From a virus: a DNA stretch of 44,485 nt. Position 1 is the first letter of the stretch; each line of letters begins with the position of its first letter. The notes under the pieces were generated by a model. The model was not told the origin of the DNA, did not search any database, and saw only the letters and a program-made list of their open reading frames with translations. Below are positions 5,320-15,633 of this stretch, in pieces. The stretch is taken from the IMG/VR virus record IMGVR_UViG_3300028030_000023, positions 1 through 44,485 of that record; one strand, given 5' to 3'. The translations under genes and the position numbers were made by a program.

Positions 5320-5943
5320 ATGGCAACTGAAAAGACAAAAATCGAAACACCAAAAGGTGATTTAATGTACGTGAACGTATCAGGTCAAGGTAAACTTGAT
5401 TATGATGGTAAGTATTATGAATATACAGCTGGTGTAAAGCTTAACAAAAAAGATGCAAAGAAACTCTATGCTGAGATTTGTGAGTATTTTGAAGAGAACA
5501 AACCAAGCTGGTTCAAAGGTGATAAGCCTACCAACAAAATCAAACGTAAACAAGATGACGGTGACTTCTTGTTCAACTTTAAAACTCGTGCAGAGTTTGA
5601 AAACGATGATGGTGATGTGCGCAAAACACAAATAAAAATTGTAAACGCACATAACAAAATTGTAAACTTACCAGAGGGTGAGGGAATTGGTAACGGTTCT
5701 TATGGACGTATCAGCGGTACAATGACAATCCACTCTGACAAAAAGAAAGGTGAGGCTGGGGTTTCACTTTGGTTATCCGGTATCAAGATTTTAAAATACG
5801 TCAAGTATATTCCTGATGCTGGCTTCTCAGATGATGATGAGGGTGACTTTGAAGACTTCGGCGGCGCTGATGGCGACTTTCCAGAAGAAGAGAAAAAGTC
5901 TAAAAAGAAAGACAAAAAGAAAAAAAAGTCTAAAAAAGATTAA
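5320..5943 (+). CDS. Single-stranded DNA-binding protein-like
   Basis: A 207-residue protein. Residues 1-165 resemble phage SSB-like proteins encoded near small PolB polymerases: an OB-fold-like run of beta strands with FLFNFKTRAEFEND, QIKIVNAHNK and VSLWLSGIKILKYVKY. The tail (about 168-207) is acidic and Phe-containing (DDDEGDFEDFGG), as in SSB/gp2.5 proteins that recruit partners. It then changes to nearly pure Lys (KKSKKKDKKKKKSKKD). The basic extension after the acidic tail is unusual. Coupled to the preceding gene (2-bp gap) and followed at once by promoter P2. The assignment is by pattern and context, not by a diagnostic motif. Confidence 0.6.
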   Translation: MATEKTKIETPKGDLMYVNVSGQGKLDYDGKYYEYTAGVKLNKKDAKKLYAEICEYFEENKPSWFKGDKPTNKIKRKQDDGDFLFNFKTRAEFENDDGDVRKTQIKIVNAHNKIVNLPEGEGIGNGSYGRISGTMTIHSDKKKGEAGVSLWLSGIKILKYVKYIPDAGFSDDDEGDFEDFGGADGDFPEEEKKSKKKDKKKKKSKKD

Positions 5944-5946
5944 ACT

Positions 5947-5979
5947 TTAAGTTAAACTAAAGGTTTAATAGTTTATAAT
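5947..5979 (+). promoter_or_regulatory. Phage promoter P2 (TTAAG / AAAGG / TATAAT class)
   Basis: TTAAG at 5947, AAAGG at 5959 and TATAAT at 5974, with the same offsets as the other three. The predicted start is near 5986. It drives the structured leader and then the methyltransferase and DNA polymerase genes. Confidence 0.8.
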
Positions 5980-6006
5980 TACATTGTCGCAAGGGAGAGG
6001 TTTTTA

Positions 6007-6186
6007 ATGAATTTTCCCAACCCCTTGTCTTCAGTAAACGTACAACAACACCCTCCATCCACCTCTCAAAGAAGTGTCAAAGATGGAGGTCATATCTTGT
6101 GGTCTCTGATGGGAGAGCGGTCTTTTCCAGCCGTGTGGCTTCGATGCCACCCACAAGTCCTTATTTTAATCTCACATTCTCCTTAA
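6007..6186 (+). CDS. Possible 59-residue leader ORF, atypical composition
   Basis: This ORF starts 20 nt after the predicted P2 start site and follows a good ribosome binding site (AGGGAGAGG, 7 nt from the ATG). The product would be rich in Pro, Ser, His and Trp and has almost no Lys, unlike every neighbour. The same bases form a strong hairpin and a tRNA-like fold. So the ORF may be a leader peptide, or may be fortuitous within a structured RNA. No homologue is recognised. Confidence 0.35.
   Translation: MNFPNPLSSVNVQQHPPSTSQRSVKDGGHILWSLMGERSFPAVWLRCHPQVLILISHSP
6052..6089 (+). ncRNA. Strong hairpin in the P2 leader
   Basis: A perfect 8-bp stem, CCTCCATC (6052-6059) with GATGGAGG (6082-6089), continues inward as CACCTC/GAAGTG (one mismatch) closing a TCAAA loop. 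It ends seven bases before the tRNA-like fold. High stability in an AT-rich genome suggests selection on the RNA. Confidence 0.55.
6096..6158 (+). ncRNA. tRNA-like structure (non-canonical, about 63 nt)
   Basis: A perfect 7-bp acceptor-like stem pairs CTTGTGG (6096-6102) with CCACAAG (6151-6157). Inside are, in tRNA order: a D-arm-like CTC..GAG with a GGG-containing loop (6104-6117); a CGG/CCG arm with a long loop TCTTTTCCAG (6118-6133); and a T-arm-like GTGGC-TTCGAT-GCCAC (6135-6150) abutting the acceptor strand. The base after the acceptor is T, followed by CC. Deviations from a working tRNA: only one base before the D-arm, a 3-bp anticodon-like stem, almost no variable region, and a 6-nt T-loop. 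It may be a decayed tRNA, a tRNA mimic or a regulatory RNA. Confidence 0.45.
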
Positions 6187-6454
6187 AGGTTTTTGCTTGA
6201 ACCTTGTATGTGTGTGTTTATCTATTTGACGGGTCTTTGAATTACCTGTCATCGCGCAACTTCTTCCCTCTTGTCAGGTTTACCCTATTTCCCTGATGAG
6301 AGGGTCTTTAAATTAATTCAAATCTTCTTAGGATGGTTTTGATTAGTTTAAGATTACAGAACTTTTGACTTTTGGTGAACCGTCATTTTGTGGAACGGAA
6401 ATAAAATCCAAATTCGTCAAAAAATCTTAAATGATTATTTAAAGGACTTACAAA
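6187..6454 (+). other. Remaining non-coding P2 leader
   Basis: No gene of credible quality is seen up to the methyltransferase ATG. It holds further short inverted repeats: AAGGTT/AACCTT near 6186-6205, ACCTG/CAGGT near 6252-6288, a CCCT/AGGG hairpin near 6300, and AATCTT/AAGATT near 6320-6357. None is followed by a clear U-run, so none is called a terminator. Parts are richer in GC than the neighbouring genes, which supports RNA structure. Confidence 0.4.
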
Positions 6455-7183
6455 ATGAATGTACTATCATTATTCGATGGTTTGTCAGGTGGAAGAATTG
6501 CATTAAAGCGTGCTAAAATAAATGTTAAAACTTATTATAGTAGCGAAATTGATAAATATGCAATACAAATTGCTAATAAAAATTACCCACAGGATAGTAA
6601 ATATCGCTTAGGTGATGTTACAAAACTTAGTAAAAAACAATTAAAAAAGCTTAATATAGATTTGCTTATTGGTGGCTCACCTTGTCAAGGATTTTCAATG
6701 ATAGGTAAACTACAAGGCAGTTCAACAAAAAATGGTATTGAGGTTACAACATTAAAACAATATAAAAAACTTAAAAAACAAGGTTTTGAGTTTGATGGTC
6801 AATCATATTTATTTTGGGAGTTTATTAGAATTCTGCATATTGTTAAACCTAAGTATTTTATGTTGGAAAACGTAAGAGTTACTAAAAAATGGCTACCTAT
6901 GTTTAATACAGCATTGGGTTGTGAGCCTATATTTATAAACAGTAATTTAGTATCTGCTCAGAATAGACCGCGTTTTTATTGGACTAATATACCTATGAAA
7001 AAAATGCCTAAAAATAAAGGTATTTTATTGAAAGATATTTTATTGAAAGATATTGAAATGAGTTTACCTCTCCCACAACACTTTACTAAAACTTTTGATG
7101 GAATTAGCAGATTAGACAAAGGGTTATTTTCAGATACAAGTAACGATAAAGCTTGTTGTTTATCAACAGGGAGTACACATTAG
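6455..7183 (+). CDS. C5-cytosine DNA methyltransferase, N-terminal part (motifs I-VIII)
   Basis: 242 residues of a DNA cytosine-5 methyltransferase, which may shield phage DNA from host restriction. Motif I LFDGLSGG (6-13), the catalytic PCQGFS with nucleophile Cys77, ENV (138-140) and QNRPRFYW (169-176) are all intact. The coding frame stops at a TAG (7181-7183) in the target-recognition region, and the missing motifs IX-X continue in the same frame at 7220-7414. Only 12 sense codons, with no further stop, separate the TAG from that ATG. Either an amber mutation broke the gene, or two chains assemble as in split enzymes such as M.AquI, or the TAG is read through. ATG at 6455 follows AAAGGAC. 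Confidence 0.85.
   Translation: MNVLSLFDGLSGGRIALKRAKINVKTYYSSEIDKYAIQIANKNYPQDSKYRLGDVTKLSKKQLKKLNIDLLIGGSPCQGFSMIGKLQGSSTKNGIEVTTLKQYKKLKKQGFEFDGQSYLFWEFIRILHIVKPKYFMLENVRVTKKWLPMFNTALGCEPIFINSNLVSAQNRPRFYWTNIPMKKMPKNKGILLKDILLKDIEMSLPLPQHFTKTFDGISRLDKGLFSDTSNDKACCLSTGSTH
7021..7050 (+). repeat. Exact 15-bp tandem duplication in the methyltransferase
   Basis: TATTTTATTGAAAGA occurs twice in tandem (7021-7035 and 7036-7050) in the target-recognition region, doubling the residues LLKDI in frame. It looks like recent replication slippage. Confidence 0.8.
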
Positions 7184-7219
7184 AATAAATATTTAATCCA
7201 TAAATATTATGGTGGCTCT

Positions 7220-7414
7220 ATGGCTAGTGTGGTTATTGACGAAACCAAAACCGAATATCTATATAGAAAAATAACACCACTTGAATGTGAAAGATTGCAA
7301 ACTTTACCAGAAAATTATACAGAGGGTGTATCAAATACACAAAGATACAAAATGATAGGTAATGGTTGGACTATTAATGTAGTGCAACATATATTTAAAG
7401 GACTTAAAAAATGA
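7220..7414 (+). CDS. C5-cytosine DNA methyltransferase, C-terminal part (motifs IX-X)
   Basis: 64 residues carrying the end of the same enzyme: RKITPLECERLQTLPENYTE (motif IX region) and RYKMIGNGWTINVVQHIF (motif X, SAM binding). It is in the same frame as the upstream part (7220 minus 6455 is divisible by 3). Its own ATG is preceded by GGTGG, a mediocre ribosome binding site, so separate translation is possible. The C-terminus overlaps the DNA polymerase start by 4 bp, the tight packing of a living gene. Without motif X on the same chain or in trans, the N-terminal part should be inactive. Confidence 0.75.
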   Translation: MASVVIDETKTEYLYRKITPLECERLQTLPENYTEGVSNTQRYKMIGNGWTINVVQHIFKGLKK

Positions 7415-9408
7415 AAACACCAATGATTTGTGATATTGAGACATATCCGAATTACAATTTGTTTGCGTTTATGAAAAACGGGAAAGTTACAACTTTTGAA
7501 AGTTGGCATAAGTTTACTAAAAAGCAATGTAAGAAAATCACAAAGCTTATGGAAAACAATCTTATAGTTACATATAATGGTAATAACTACGATATACCTT
7601 TGATTAACTACGCTGTAAAGAAAAATGCGTCTGTAAATCAAATGTATATGGCGAGTAAAGCCATAATCGAAGATAGATTGAAACCATTTGCGTTGTATCG
7701 TAAAATGAATTTAGCGTTTGAAGACAGATTGAAAATCAATCACATAGACCTTAAAGAACCTGCACCCGCGGTTATGATTTCTTTAAAACTCTATGGCTCA
7801 CGCTTAAATAGTAAAGTTTTATGGGATTTACCATACGACCCCCATACACCGCTCACCATTAAACAGGCTGAGACTATCGTTGAATATTGTGAAAATGATT
7901 TACAAATAACTTTAGACCTCTTTAACGGGATTAAAGACAGACTCGAACTTCGTGAGCAGATGTCAGAGCAGTATGATATAGACCTGCGTTCAAAATCAGA
8001 TGCGCAAATCGCTGAAGCTGTAATGAAGTCTGAATTGGCTAAGGATGGTATTCACGCAGAGAGACCCCATCTCGACGATGGTTACAACTGTTATTATAAA
8101 CCTCCGAAGTATATTAAATTCAAGACAAAGCAATTAAAACAACTATTCAAAAAAATAAAAAACCAAAACTTTTTATTAGACAATGGCGGTTCAGTCAAAA
8201 TACCGGCAGCGTTAAGTCAAGAAGTAATAACTATCGGTAACACAAGTTACAATATAGGTATCGGTGGATTACACTCTATGGAAAAAAGTCTTGCAGTAAC
8301 TAAAGGTAAGATGATGAACGCTGACTATAGCTCATATTATCCTTTTATCATTTTAAAGAATGGATATTATCCATTACACTTAGGTAAAAAATTCCTTGAT
8401 GTATATAAAAACATTGTTACGACAAGACTTAAAGCAAAAGCTGAGGGTGACACACTTGTCGCAAATTCTTTAAAAATTACAATCAATGGTTCATTTGGTA
8501 AGTACGGCAGTAAATGGTCGGTACTTTACAGCCCTGACCTATTGTTACAAGTAACACTCACAGGACAGCTCACACTTTTAATGCTTATCGAAAAACTTGA
8601 AAGTAAAGGTATAAGTGTCGTCAGTGCAAATACAGATGGTCTGGAAATGAACATCCATACTAAAAAGCAAGAAAAAAAAGCTCGTAAGATTATCAAGAAG
8701 TTCGATGAGGTTACAGGTTATGAAATGGAAATTGGTGAATATAAAGCCCTTTTTGCTCGTGATGTGAATAATTATGTGGCAAAATACGATGGTTATGTAA
8801 AAGCAAAAGGCGTTTATGCTGACCCTTTGGATAAAAACAACTATTTAAAAAAGAACTCACAAACTCCAATAGTATTTGAATCTGTACGAGAATTTATAAA
8901 TAATGGAACACCTATAAAAAAGACTATCAATAAATGTGATGATGTTACAAAATTTTTGTCAAGTCGTAATGTTAAGGGTGGAGGTGTATTCGGTGTTGAC
9001 CTTGAATATGTGCCCGTAATCGTATCAGAGATACAATGGGTCGGCGAAAGATTGGCTGCTGTCCCCTTACCGGAGCGCTGGGAAGCATCTTTAAAGCGCA
9101 ATAAACGTGTAACTAAAAGTATCCTTGAAGAGATTGAAAAGAACGAAGCTCAATATATAAAAGAAAACGGGCAGTATCTTGGAAAAGTTGTGAGATGGTA
9201 CTATTCGACAAAAGGCAGCGCTATATACTATAAATCAAATGGTAATAAAGTACCTAAGACAGACGGGGCTATGCCTATGATGACCCTTAAAAAGAAAATA
9301 CCAAAGGATTTAGATTACACTTGGTACTATAATGAAGCTGAACAAATGCTACTTGATTTAGGGATAGGTCTTGGTTTAGTTGAGAAAGATTTTTTCAAAA
9401 CATCATAA
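7411..9408 (+). CDS. DNA polymerase, family B (small phage type) with 3'-5' exonuclease
   Basis: The 665-residue replicative polymerase. Exonuclease motifs: Exo I DIETYPN (8-14), Exo II YNGNNYDIP (55-63), Exo III YCENDLQITLDL (159-170). Polymerase motifs: A DYSSYYPFIIL (305-315), B KITINGSFGKYG (355-366), and C SANTDG (405-410). Motif C has NTDG where most family B enzymes have DTDS: the second, metal-binding Asp is kept and the first is Asn, a form I recall from other phage PolB enzymes. It is shorter than T4-like polymerases and lacks an extended N-terminal domain. The ATG at 7411 overlaps the methyltransferase end by 4 bp. It works with the Prim-Pol helicase and SSB-like protein. Confidence 0.92.
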   Translation: MKTPMICDIETYPNYNLFAFMKNGKVTTFESWHKFTKKQCKKITKLMENNLIVTYNGNNYDIPLINYAVKKNASVNQMYMASKAIIEDRLKPFALYRKMNLAFEDRLKINHIDLKEPAPAVMISLKLYGSRLNSKVLWDLPYDPHTPLTIKQAETIVEYCENDLQITLDLFNGIKDRLELREQMSEQYDIDLRSKSDAQIAEAVMKSELAKDGIHAERPHLDDGYNCYYKPPKYIKFKTKQLKQLFKKIKNQNFLLDNGGSVKIPAALSQEVITIGNTSYNIGIGGLHSMEKSLAVTKGKMMNADYSSYYPFIILKNGYYPLHLGKKFLDVYKNIVTTRLKAKAEGDTLVANSLKITINGSFGKYGSKWSVLYSPDLLLQVTLTGQLTLLMLIEKLESKGISVVSANTDGLEMNIHTKKQEKKARKIIKKFDEVTGYEMEIGEYKALFARDVNNYVAKYDGYVKAKGVYADPLDKNNYLKKNSQTPIVFESVREFINNGTPIKKTINKCDDVTKFLSSRNVKGGGVFGVDLEYVPVIVSEIQWVGERLAAVPLPERWEASLKRNKRVTKSILEEIEKNEAQYIKENGQYLGKVVRWYYSTKGSAIYYKSNGNKVPKTDGAMPMMTLKKKIPKDLDYTWYYNEAEQMLLDLGIGLGLVEKDFFKTS

Positions 9409-9423
9409 AATGTTAAACATTAA
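9407..9423. promoter_or_regulatory. Operator palindrome AATGTT-W-AACATT, copy 2
   Basis: A 17-bp sequence identical to that at 1723-1739, with its dyad at 9409-9421. It overlaps the TTAAG element of promoter P3, so a bound protein would be expected to control P3. Confidence 0.65.
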
Positions 9424-9452
9424 GTTAAACAAAAGGCTTACTACGTTATACT
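9420..9452 (+). promoter_or_regulatory. Phage promoter P3 (TTAAG / AAAGG / TATACT class)
   Basis: TTAAG at 9420, AAAGG at 9432 and TATACT at 9447, with the same geometry as P1, P2 and P4. It lies 45 bp upstream of the first accessory gene at 9497. From 9420 to 9452 it differs from P4 by only three bases. Confidence 0.8.
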
Positions 9453-10457: not shown

Positions 10458-10876
10458 AAACAAAATTTAAAAAAGGCGATAGCGTTTTTAGTTACTCATT
10501 ACAAGAGTTTGGTGAAGTAACTGGAATTGACAATTCTCATGACAGACCATTACACGTAAAATTTGATAAATCGGGTTTTTGCTATTTTACAGAGAATGGC
10601 AGACGTTCTCCAAAGGACAAAGCAATAGATTTATTCTATGATAAAGTGTCTATCATAGCACCGCCAAGACCTTTACAAGATAAAGACATAGTTAAATATT
10701 CAGGTGATGAAAAACAAAAATTTGTAATATGTTTTGGCTTCTATGATAAAAAATATAACAAACTTTTTGATAGCTATGGACGAAGAAATGGTAATACTTG
10801 GGATAATATAGTGTATGTACCCGATGAAGAAGCTCCGCAAGAACTGGTAGCTATGAGAGATGAGTTGGAGGATTAA
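10454..10876 (+). CDS. Unknown accessory protein, paralogue-like to 9751-10341
   Basis: A 140-residue protein. It begins MKTKFKKGDSVFSY, continues with a beta-rich segment (VKFDKSGFCYFTENGRR), and has KFVICFGFYDKKYNKLF and NGNTWDNIVYVPDEE near the end. The last two parts echo the module of the 196-residue protein at 9751. The final residues RDELED are encoded by bases containing GGAGG, which also serve as the ribosome binding site of the next gene. The same 16-bp end (GATGAGTTGGAGGATT) recurs at the end of 11601-11858. Function unknown. Confidence 0.7.
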   Translation: MKTKFKKGDSVFSYSLQEFGEVTGIDNSHDRPLHVKFDKSGFCYFTENGRRSPKDKAIDLFYDKVSIIAPPRPLQDKDIVKYSGDEKQKFVICFGFYDKKYNKLFDSYGRRNGNTWDNIVYVPDEEAPQELVAMRDELED

Positions 10877-15336: not shown

Positions 15337-15598
15337 GATACAAAGTGATATACTAAAATGGCTTAAAAGCCGCCCTAACACATTTACCTACAAACACGAA
15401 CCCGTACCGGCTGGTATCCCTGACATCCATCATATTGAAAACGGCATATCATTTTACTTTGAAGTAAAGCGTACTGCTAAAGATAAACCTAGAGAAATAC
15501 AAAAATTACGTATAAAACAACTCAAAAAAGCTGGGGCTGTTGCTAAGGTTGTGCGCAGTTTGAGAGAAGTTAAGGATATTATCTACAAAAATGTTTAA
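15311..15598 (+). CDS. VRR-NUC domain nuclease (TTG start)
   Basis: A 95-residue, single-domain VRR-NUC protein (PD-(D/E)xK superfamily). Signs: ESKIQSDILKWLK at the N-terminus, GIPDIHHI (catalytic Asp), FEVKR (catalytic Glu and Lys), and QKLRIKQLKKAGAVAKVV. Stand-alone VRR-NUC proteins of phages cut branched or structured DNA and are often encoded beside SF2 helicases, as here. No ATG exists at the start; TTG at 15311 is preceded by GGAG at 8 nt. It overlaps the RHH-like gene by 26 bp. Confidence 0.85.
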   Translation: MKNIPLESKIQSDILKWLKSRPNTFTYKHEPVPAGIPDIHHIENGISFYFEVKRTAKDKPREIQKLRIKQLKKAGAVAKVVRSLREVKDIIYKNV

Positions 15599-15604
15599 CA
15601 TTAA
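15588..15604. promoter_or_regulatory. Operator palindrome AATGTT-W-AACATT, copy 3
   Basis: A 17-bp motif with dyad at 15590-15602, differing from the other two copies only at the centre base. It overlaps the end of the VRR-NUC gene and the TTAAG element of P4, exactly as copy 2 does at P3. Confidence 0.65.
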
Positions 15605-15633
15605 GTTTAACGAAAGGTTTACTACGTTATACT
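15601..15633 (+). promoter_or_regulatory. Phage promoter P4 (TTAAG / AAAGG / TATACT class)
   Basis: TTAAG at 15601, AAAGG at 15613 and TATACT at 15628, the fourth copy with identical spacing. It drives the last plus-strand segment (15663-18071). Confidence 0.8.

Follow-up and report, generated by a model that had tools for sequence, protein, structure and literature searches.

The SSB-Polymerase Junction of the Window Phage

The window analyzed here is a stretch of 44,485 nucleotides of viral DNA that spans positions 1 to 44,485 of the record IMGVR_UViG_3300028030_000023. On its plus strand, the gene for a gp2.5-like single-stranded DNA-binding protein (SSB; 5320-5943; Pfam SBB_T7, E 4e-8; phrog_112, E 4e-16) is followed by a gap without genes (5944-6454), by a C5-cytosine methyltransferase gene (6455-7414) and by a DNA polymerase gene (7411-9408; phrog_1252, E 1e-172), which overlaps the methyltransferase gene. 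The sole open reading frame of at least 50 codons inside the gap (6007-6186, 59 aa) has a codon log-odds of -0.32 per codon, whereas the genuine genes of the phage, whatever their length, score +0.07 to +0.29; a homologue search returned no convincing homologue for it. Codon statistics thus led to its rejection as a gene, and the gap is non-coding. An earlier note on this DNA, made from the letters alone, had described a gene-poor and locally GC-richer stretch starting at a promoter that it called P2, and both features were recovered: GC content is 53% at 6050-6160 versus 36% genome-wide, while the 3' part of the leader is AT-rich. The same note had named conservation of the 59-codon frame as an argument against a structured RNA; the frame turned out not to be coding.

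P2 itself (5940-5979, plus strand) is a promoter-like element consisting of a TTAAAC direct repeat with a period of 12, plus TATAAT, and the predicted start of the transcript lies at about 5986. Its -35 region is poor and one sequence-based site scan does not contain it; nevertheless, P2 is credible as a promoter upstream of the leader because two further copies of the core of its 40-nt element occur in the window, at 9413-9452 and 15594-15633, upstream of two other genes, and none in shuffles. Elements similar to P2 are present in two relatives (L199, at 10041; L201, on the reverse complement at 10582). Judging from their sequence, the members of this family, in which TTAAAC repeats of period 12 precede a TATAAT-like box, are probably bound by a phage regulator.

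The methyltransferase gene contains one in-frame TAG (7181-7183). When this codon is read through, the product is 319 aa long, which equals the length of the relative in L007, and the TAG may be a nonsense mutation, a variant or a site of readthrough. The rest of the window phage does not use TAG as a sense codon. A recoded TAG served by a suppressor tRNA was considered and rejected, since opening TAG lengthens few genes and the tRNA-like fold described below has no CUA anticodon.

Folding of the Leader

For the whole leader, the fold has an energy of -127.9 kcal/mol (z -3.75), a value matched by none of 100 shuffles. Two subregions are also more stable than chance, 6045-6160 (z -3.8) and 6160-6305 (z -4.8); 6305-6454 taken alone is not significant against shuffles. 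Near the 5' end of the leader, the minimum free energy (MFE) fold has a hairpin at 5993-6018. A second hairpin at 6052-6089 (z -3.2), with an outer stem of 8 bp and an inner one of 3+3 bp, appears in both the MFE and the centroid folds, as the earlier note had read it from the letters.

Both folds also contain, at 6096-6157, a tRNA-like cloverleaf of 62 nt, formed by a 7-bp acceptor stem (6096-6102/6151-6157), a 5-bp D-like arm (6103-6116), a 5-bp anticodon-like arm with an 8-nt loop (6117-6134) and a 5-bp T-like arm with the 6-nt loop UUCGAU (6135-6150). All the stems are perfect, without mismatches, and there are neither linkers nor a variable loop. The acceptor stem and the order of the arms had been correctly recognized in the earlier note, which placed the 3' end one nucleotide too far, at 6158. 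In a strict cloverleaf search, only one of 400 shuffled leaders holds a cloverleaf as stable as this one (p 0.005). Downstream, a 7-bp hairpin (6186-6205) and an 8-bp hairpin (6227-6251) are followed by H3, a 13-bp hairpin (6266-6304), and, directly after it, by H4, an AU-rich and bulged hairpin of 19 pairs (6307-6352), all on the plus strand.

Synteny in Related Phages

Searches with the SSB and the polymerase returned only a sister group (L001, L090, L169, and L170; SSB 45-47% by tblastn). At the same SSB-polymerase place, these phages have a conserved non-coding block of another kind, GTGATGACGATTAGCA...TGGAACTCATGTCAGCC, which follows a hairpin and is not tRNA-like (L001, 3306-3370; L090, 5718-5776; L169, about 5398-5460; weaker in L170, about 5327); it has no match in Rfam. 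A terminase search gave access to closer phages, 66-74% identical, three of which hold the replication region, namely G003 (IMGVR 3300005095_000165), G004 (3300026484_000104) and G006 (3300028534_000041). The comparison that follows covers these three and the window, four genomes that are all metagenomic. Among phages with a name, Sulfurimonas phage SNW-1 has the best-matching terminase (53%), and the primase is similar to the one of Nitratiruptor phage NrS-1; by these protein similarities, the host is likely a member of the Campylobacterota. Prophages of this clade were sought in genome scans, which returned nothing beyond two distant primase matches.

Gene order in the three phages is that of the window, with the primase on one strand and two small genes, the SSB, the gap, the polymerase and the exonuclease on the other, except that no methyltransferase gene stands between the gap and the polymerase. 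Since these syntenic relatives are devoid of it, the methyltransferase gene is a later insertion between the RNA and the polymerase gene, and the RNA element belongs to the SSB-polymerase junction rather than to the methyltransferase. The idea that the leader is tied to the methyltransferase was abandoned: the relatives keep the RNA at the junction without that gene, and 80 methyltransferase relatives gave no leader match. In the 11 of them that were inspected, another gene lies close upstream, leaving a gap of at most about 130 nt. A trace of how the insertion took place is likely to be found in the 19 nt that precede the methyltransferase start (6436-6454), which are 94.7% identical to those preceding the polymerase start (7392-7410).

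Short hydrophobic peptide-like frames lie just ahead of the polymerase start in L199 (7397-7489) and L201 (reverse complement, about 8441-8510). By eye, these two frames look akin, the one of G003 reading MSETEFVTIVGVTVILSCV and the one of G006 MNDT followed by TAG and by LISISGVIVILCNV.

A Cloverleaf Conserved in Shape

In the three relatives, too, the gap between the SSB and polymerase genes has a more stable fold than its shuffles (z -4.25, -3.44, and -4.11). A hairpin sits at the SSB stop, to which the window hairpin at 5993-6018 corresponds by position only, and a cloverleaf begins about 21-24 nt after that stop; the hairpin at 6052-6089 has no counterpart. G003 and G006 have a 7-bp acceptor stem and a 5-bp T stem whose 7-nt loop is UGCAAAU, the T arm adjoining the 3' acceptor strand. 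G004 carries the same loop on a 4-bp T stem plus a mismatch; its MFE fold contains a third inner arm and the strict cloverleaf descriptor misses it. A complement between the D-loop and the T-loop, noticed by eye in G003, is not shared by the other phages.

Over the four phages, with the window aligned by hand, 47 of the 48 cells of the acceptor and T stems are paired. Of the 12 pairs, 11 show changes on both sides from one phage to another, and the letters of the copies are almost entirely different. When the 3' strands are swapped, the best other arrangement pairs 41 cells, versus the 47 observed. Moreover, a covariance model built from G006 alone retrieves G003 (E 1.7e-11 in 141 kb) and G004 (E 2.6e-6 in its gap, 1.4e-4 in 15 kb). 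In the alignment of G003, G004, and G006, which was fitted to the model and hence leans towards structure, 95.6% of the cells pair and 13 pairs change on both sides, a number reached by none of 500 shuffles and compared with 0-4 in slid versions. These are the homologues with compensatory changes in the acceptor stem that the earlier note had proposed to look for; they were found in three related phages, the copy of the window being a weak match to the models. From this covariation, the element is very probably a real, conserved structured RNA of this clade. Its family is so far confined to a small clade, as a search with the covariance model R2 in 1.0 Mb of 92 more distant polymerase loci gave no match. 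Blast of the leader against phage, plasmid and near records returned chance matches only.

A role in DNA replication, with the transcript or a cruciform-forming DNA acting as primer or origin, could be suggested by the position among the SSB, primase-polymerase and polymerase genes, by the long inverted repeats and by the AT-rich 3' part. We consider this highly improbable: the turn in cumulative GC skew falls at about 4 kb, together with the divergence of transcription, and not at 6 kb, and the conserved T-loop and cloverleaf speak for an RNA.

Membership of the Window Copy

The window copy is the most divergent of the four and does not have the UGCAAAU T-loop. Within the leader, the top match of the models falls on the expected position of this copy, with 10.0 and 12.2 bits (E about 0.02; 0.018 for the higher score); in a search of the whole contig its E-value is 1.6 and it ranks fourth, three chance places scoring as high. 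Further evidence comes from the region downstream. Downstream of the cloverleaf, all four phages have H3 (9-14 bp) and, 0-2 nt later, H4 (18-20 pairs, bulged, 44-49 nt). Of 600 shuffles of each region, 3, 3, 3, and 11 contain this tandem, as do 7 of 708 window tiles, figures that are optimistic because the criterion was chosen after the four folds had been seen.

The weak score and the missing loop, together with the extra hairpins of the window and the position of its leader ahead of an inserted and interrupted methyltransferase gene, would also be expected if the window cloverleaf were a chance fold or a decayed copy and only the three relatives had a functional element. This explanation has little likelihood, given that the place and the helix register are the same, that the cloverleaf is rare in shuffles (the p of 0.005 given above), that the H3-H4 tandem is shared and that the stems are perfect. 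On the basis of synteny (SSB, RNA, polymerase, with the methyltransferase inserted before the latter), of the register and stability of the cloverleaf, and of H3-H4, the window copy is probably a member of the same RNA family as those of G003, G004, and G006.

Relation to tRNA and to Known RNA Families

A genuine tRNA or tmRNA, or a member of a known RNA family, was discarded. ARAGORN reports no tRNA gene in the window or the relatives; its tmRNA search and Rfam show no tmRNA, and no model of Rfam 15, including T-box, C4, riboswitches and phage RNAs, matches at its gathering threshold. The Rfam tRNA model (RF00005, gathering score 29) finds nothing in the window or in G003, and gives the G006 copy 26.2 bits, just below the cut-off (E 0.0011 in 201 nt). 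The combination of a 7-bp acceptor stem, a 5-bp T stem and a 7-nt T-loop is exact in G003 and G006, while the window has the 7+5 bp with a 6-nt loop; all three thus present a 12-bp acceptor-T helix. The anticodon-like loop is not of 7 nt (8 nt in the window, 14 nt in G003, 12 nt in G006), no anticodon is conserved among the copies and a 3' NCCA is not encoded, the acceptor being followed by UCCU (window), UCCC (G003), ACAA (G004), or AACA (G006).

Possible Function at the Junction

The conservation of a shape whose sequence is free points to a reader of shape. RNase P is the enzyme that reads the acceptor/T stack. Cleavage by RNase P is documented for tRNA-like structures, for the phage M3 and C4 RNAs and for mRNAs, the first of which to be reported was that of T4 gene 32 (PMC11143913). 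In plant mitochondria, tRNA-like structures called t-elements are found at mRNA ends and have been proposed as RNase P substrates, although the message of the cox1 t-element was unaffected by an RNase P knock-down (PMC4368725). Because the shape is kept, because RNase P cuts substrates of these kinds and because t-elements are analogous, cutting at the SSB-polymerase junction is the reading that we favor. The host RNase P would recognize the 12-bp acceptor/T-arm stack and cut where the cloverleaf begins, at about 6095/6096, thereby separating the SSB message from that of the polymerase; the cloverleaf and H3/H4 would then define the 5' end of the polymerase message (here methyltransferase-polymerase) or shield it, and one operon could give much SSB and little polymerase. 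To this mechanism as a whole, a cis element cut by the host RNase P, we assign a probability of roughly 0.4. Taken to its full extent, the proposal is that an undescribed family of phage RNAs, composed of a tRNA mimic and tandem hairpins, uses a host tRNA-processing enzyme to split a replication operon message and to set the SSB:polymerase ratio, and in this form it is put forward tentatively.

The main rival is a regulatory leader, in which the cloverleaf and H3/H4 act as an operator or switch bound by the SSB, the polymerase or a host tRNA-binding factor and set the translation of the polymerase operon. In all four phages the element indeed precedes the polymerase gene as part of its 5' leader, and it has been kept ahead of the inserted methyltransferase. 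In addition, an 8-bp complement links 6155-6162 to the ribosome site at 6442-6449, and similar short complements exist in the relatives; however, in none of the four is this complement better than in shuffles (p 0.13-0.22), and an anti-Shine-Dalgarno switch was dropped for this reason. Furthermore, the stems show no conservation of sequence, an argument in favor of recognition limited to the shape. On balance, a regulatory leader seems rather unlikely.

The element might also be a discrete RNA acting in trans, cut out or transcribed from P2, as a tRNA mimic, a decoy or a small RNA. Its compact, stable and tRNA-shaped fold, the T-arm of G006, which is close to the tRNA consensus, and the promoter-like element that precedes it in the window are in line with this possibility. 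It is nonetheless improbable, since in the relatives the short distance from the SSB stop to the cloverleaf leaves no room for a separate promoter, no anticodon is conserved, and a scan showed no terminator-like site. The earlier note had left the choice between a phage non-coding RNA, a tRNA mimic and a regulated leader for the methyltransferase and polymerase genes: the non-coding and tRNA-like character stands, strengthened by the compensatory changes in three relatives, and the assignment to the methyltransferase does not.

Comparison With Known Systems

A limited search of the literature found no description of such a tRNA-shaped element between SSB and polymerase genes, which is weak evidence of novelty; the element is apparently undescribed so far and adds a structured RNA family without an entry in Rfam. 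Known examples of elements that are tRNA-like without being tRNAs come from plant viruses, organelles and a small number of stable RNAs. If the proposed cleavage is true, the message of a replication operon would be subject to “tRNA punctuation” without a tRNA, and a covarying tRNA-like element fixed in a phage replication operon would offer a natural case in which the punctuation of messages by tRNA shape could be tested in bacteria.

With tRNA (RF00005) the element shares the 7-bp acceptor, the 5-bp T stem, the D and anticodon arms in order and, in G006, a T-arm that fits the consensus; it differs in the anticodon loops, in the unconserved stem sequences and, in the window, in the absence of linkers and of a variable loop. 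T4 gene 32 encodes the SSB of T4, and the SSB and polymerase of this phage (genes 32 and 43) regulate their own messages through operators that are a pseudoknot or a simple hairpin. Like the element, these autogenous operators are structured and lie in the leaders of SSB and polymerase genes of a phage; their architecture differs from the cloverleaf and tandem hairpins found here. The M3 RNA, the C4 antisense RNA and the gene 32 mRNA are phage RNAs cut by host RNase P, the last from an SSB gene as well; no sequence or Rfam relation to the element was found and, to our knowledge, they do not share its cloverleaf-plus-hairpins architecture. The nearest analogue of a tRNA shape at message ends is provided by the t-elements of plant mitochondria, which likewise place a tRNA-like fold in the leader or trailer of an mRNA; they are organellar, whereas the element described here lies in a phage replication operon, is accompanied by two more conserved hairpins and would be cleaved according to our reading of its shape.
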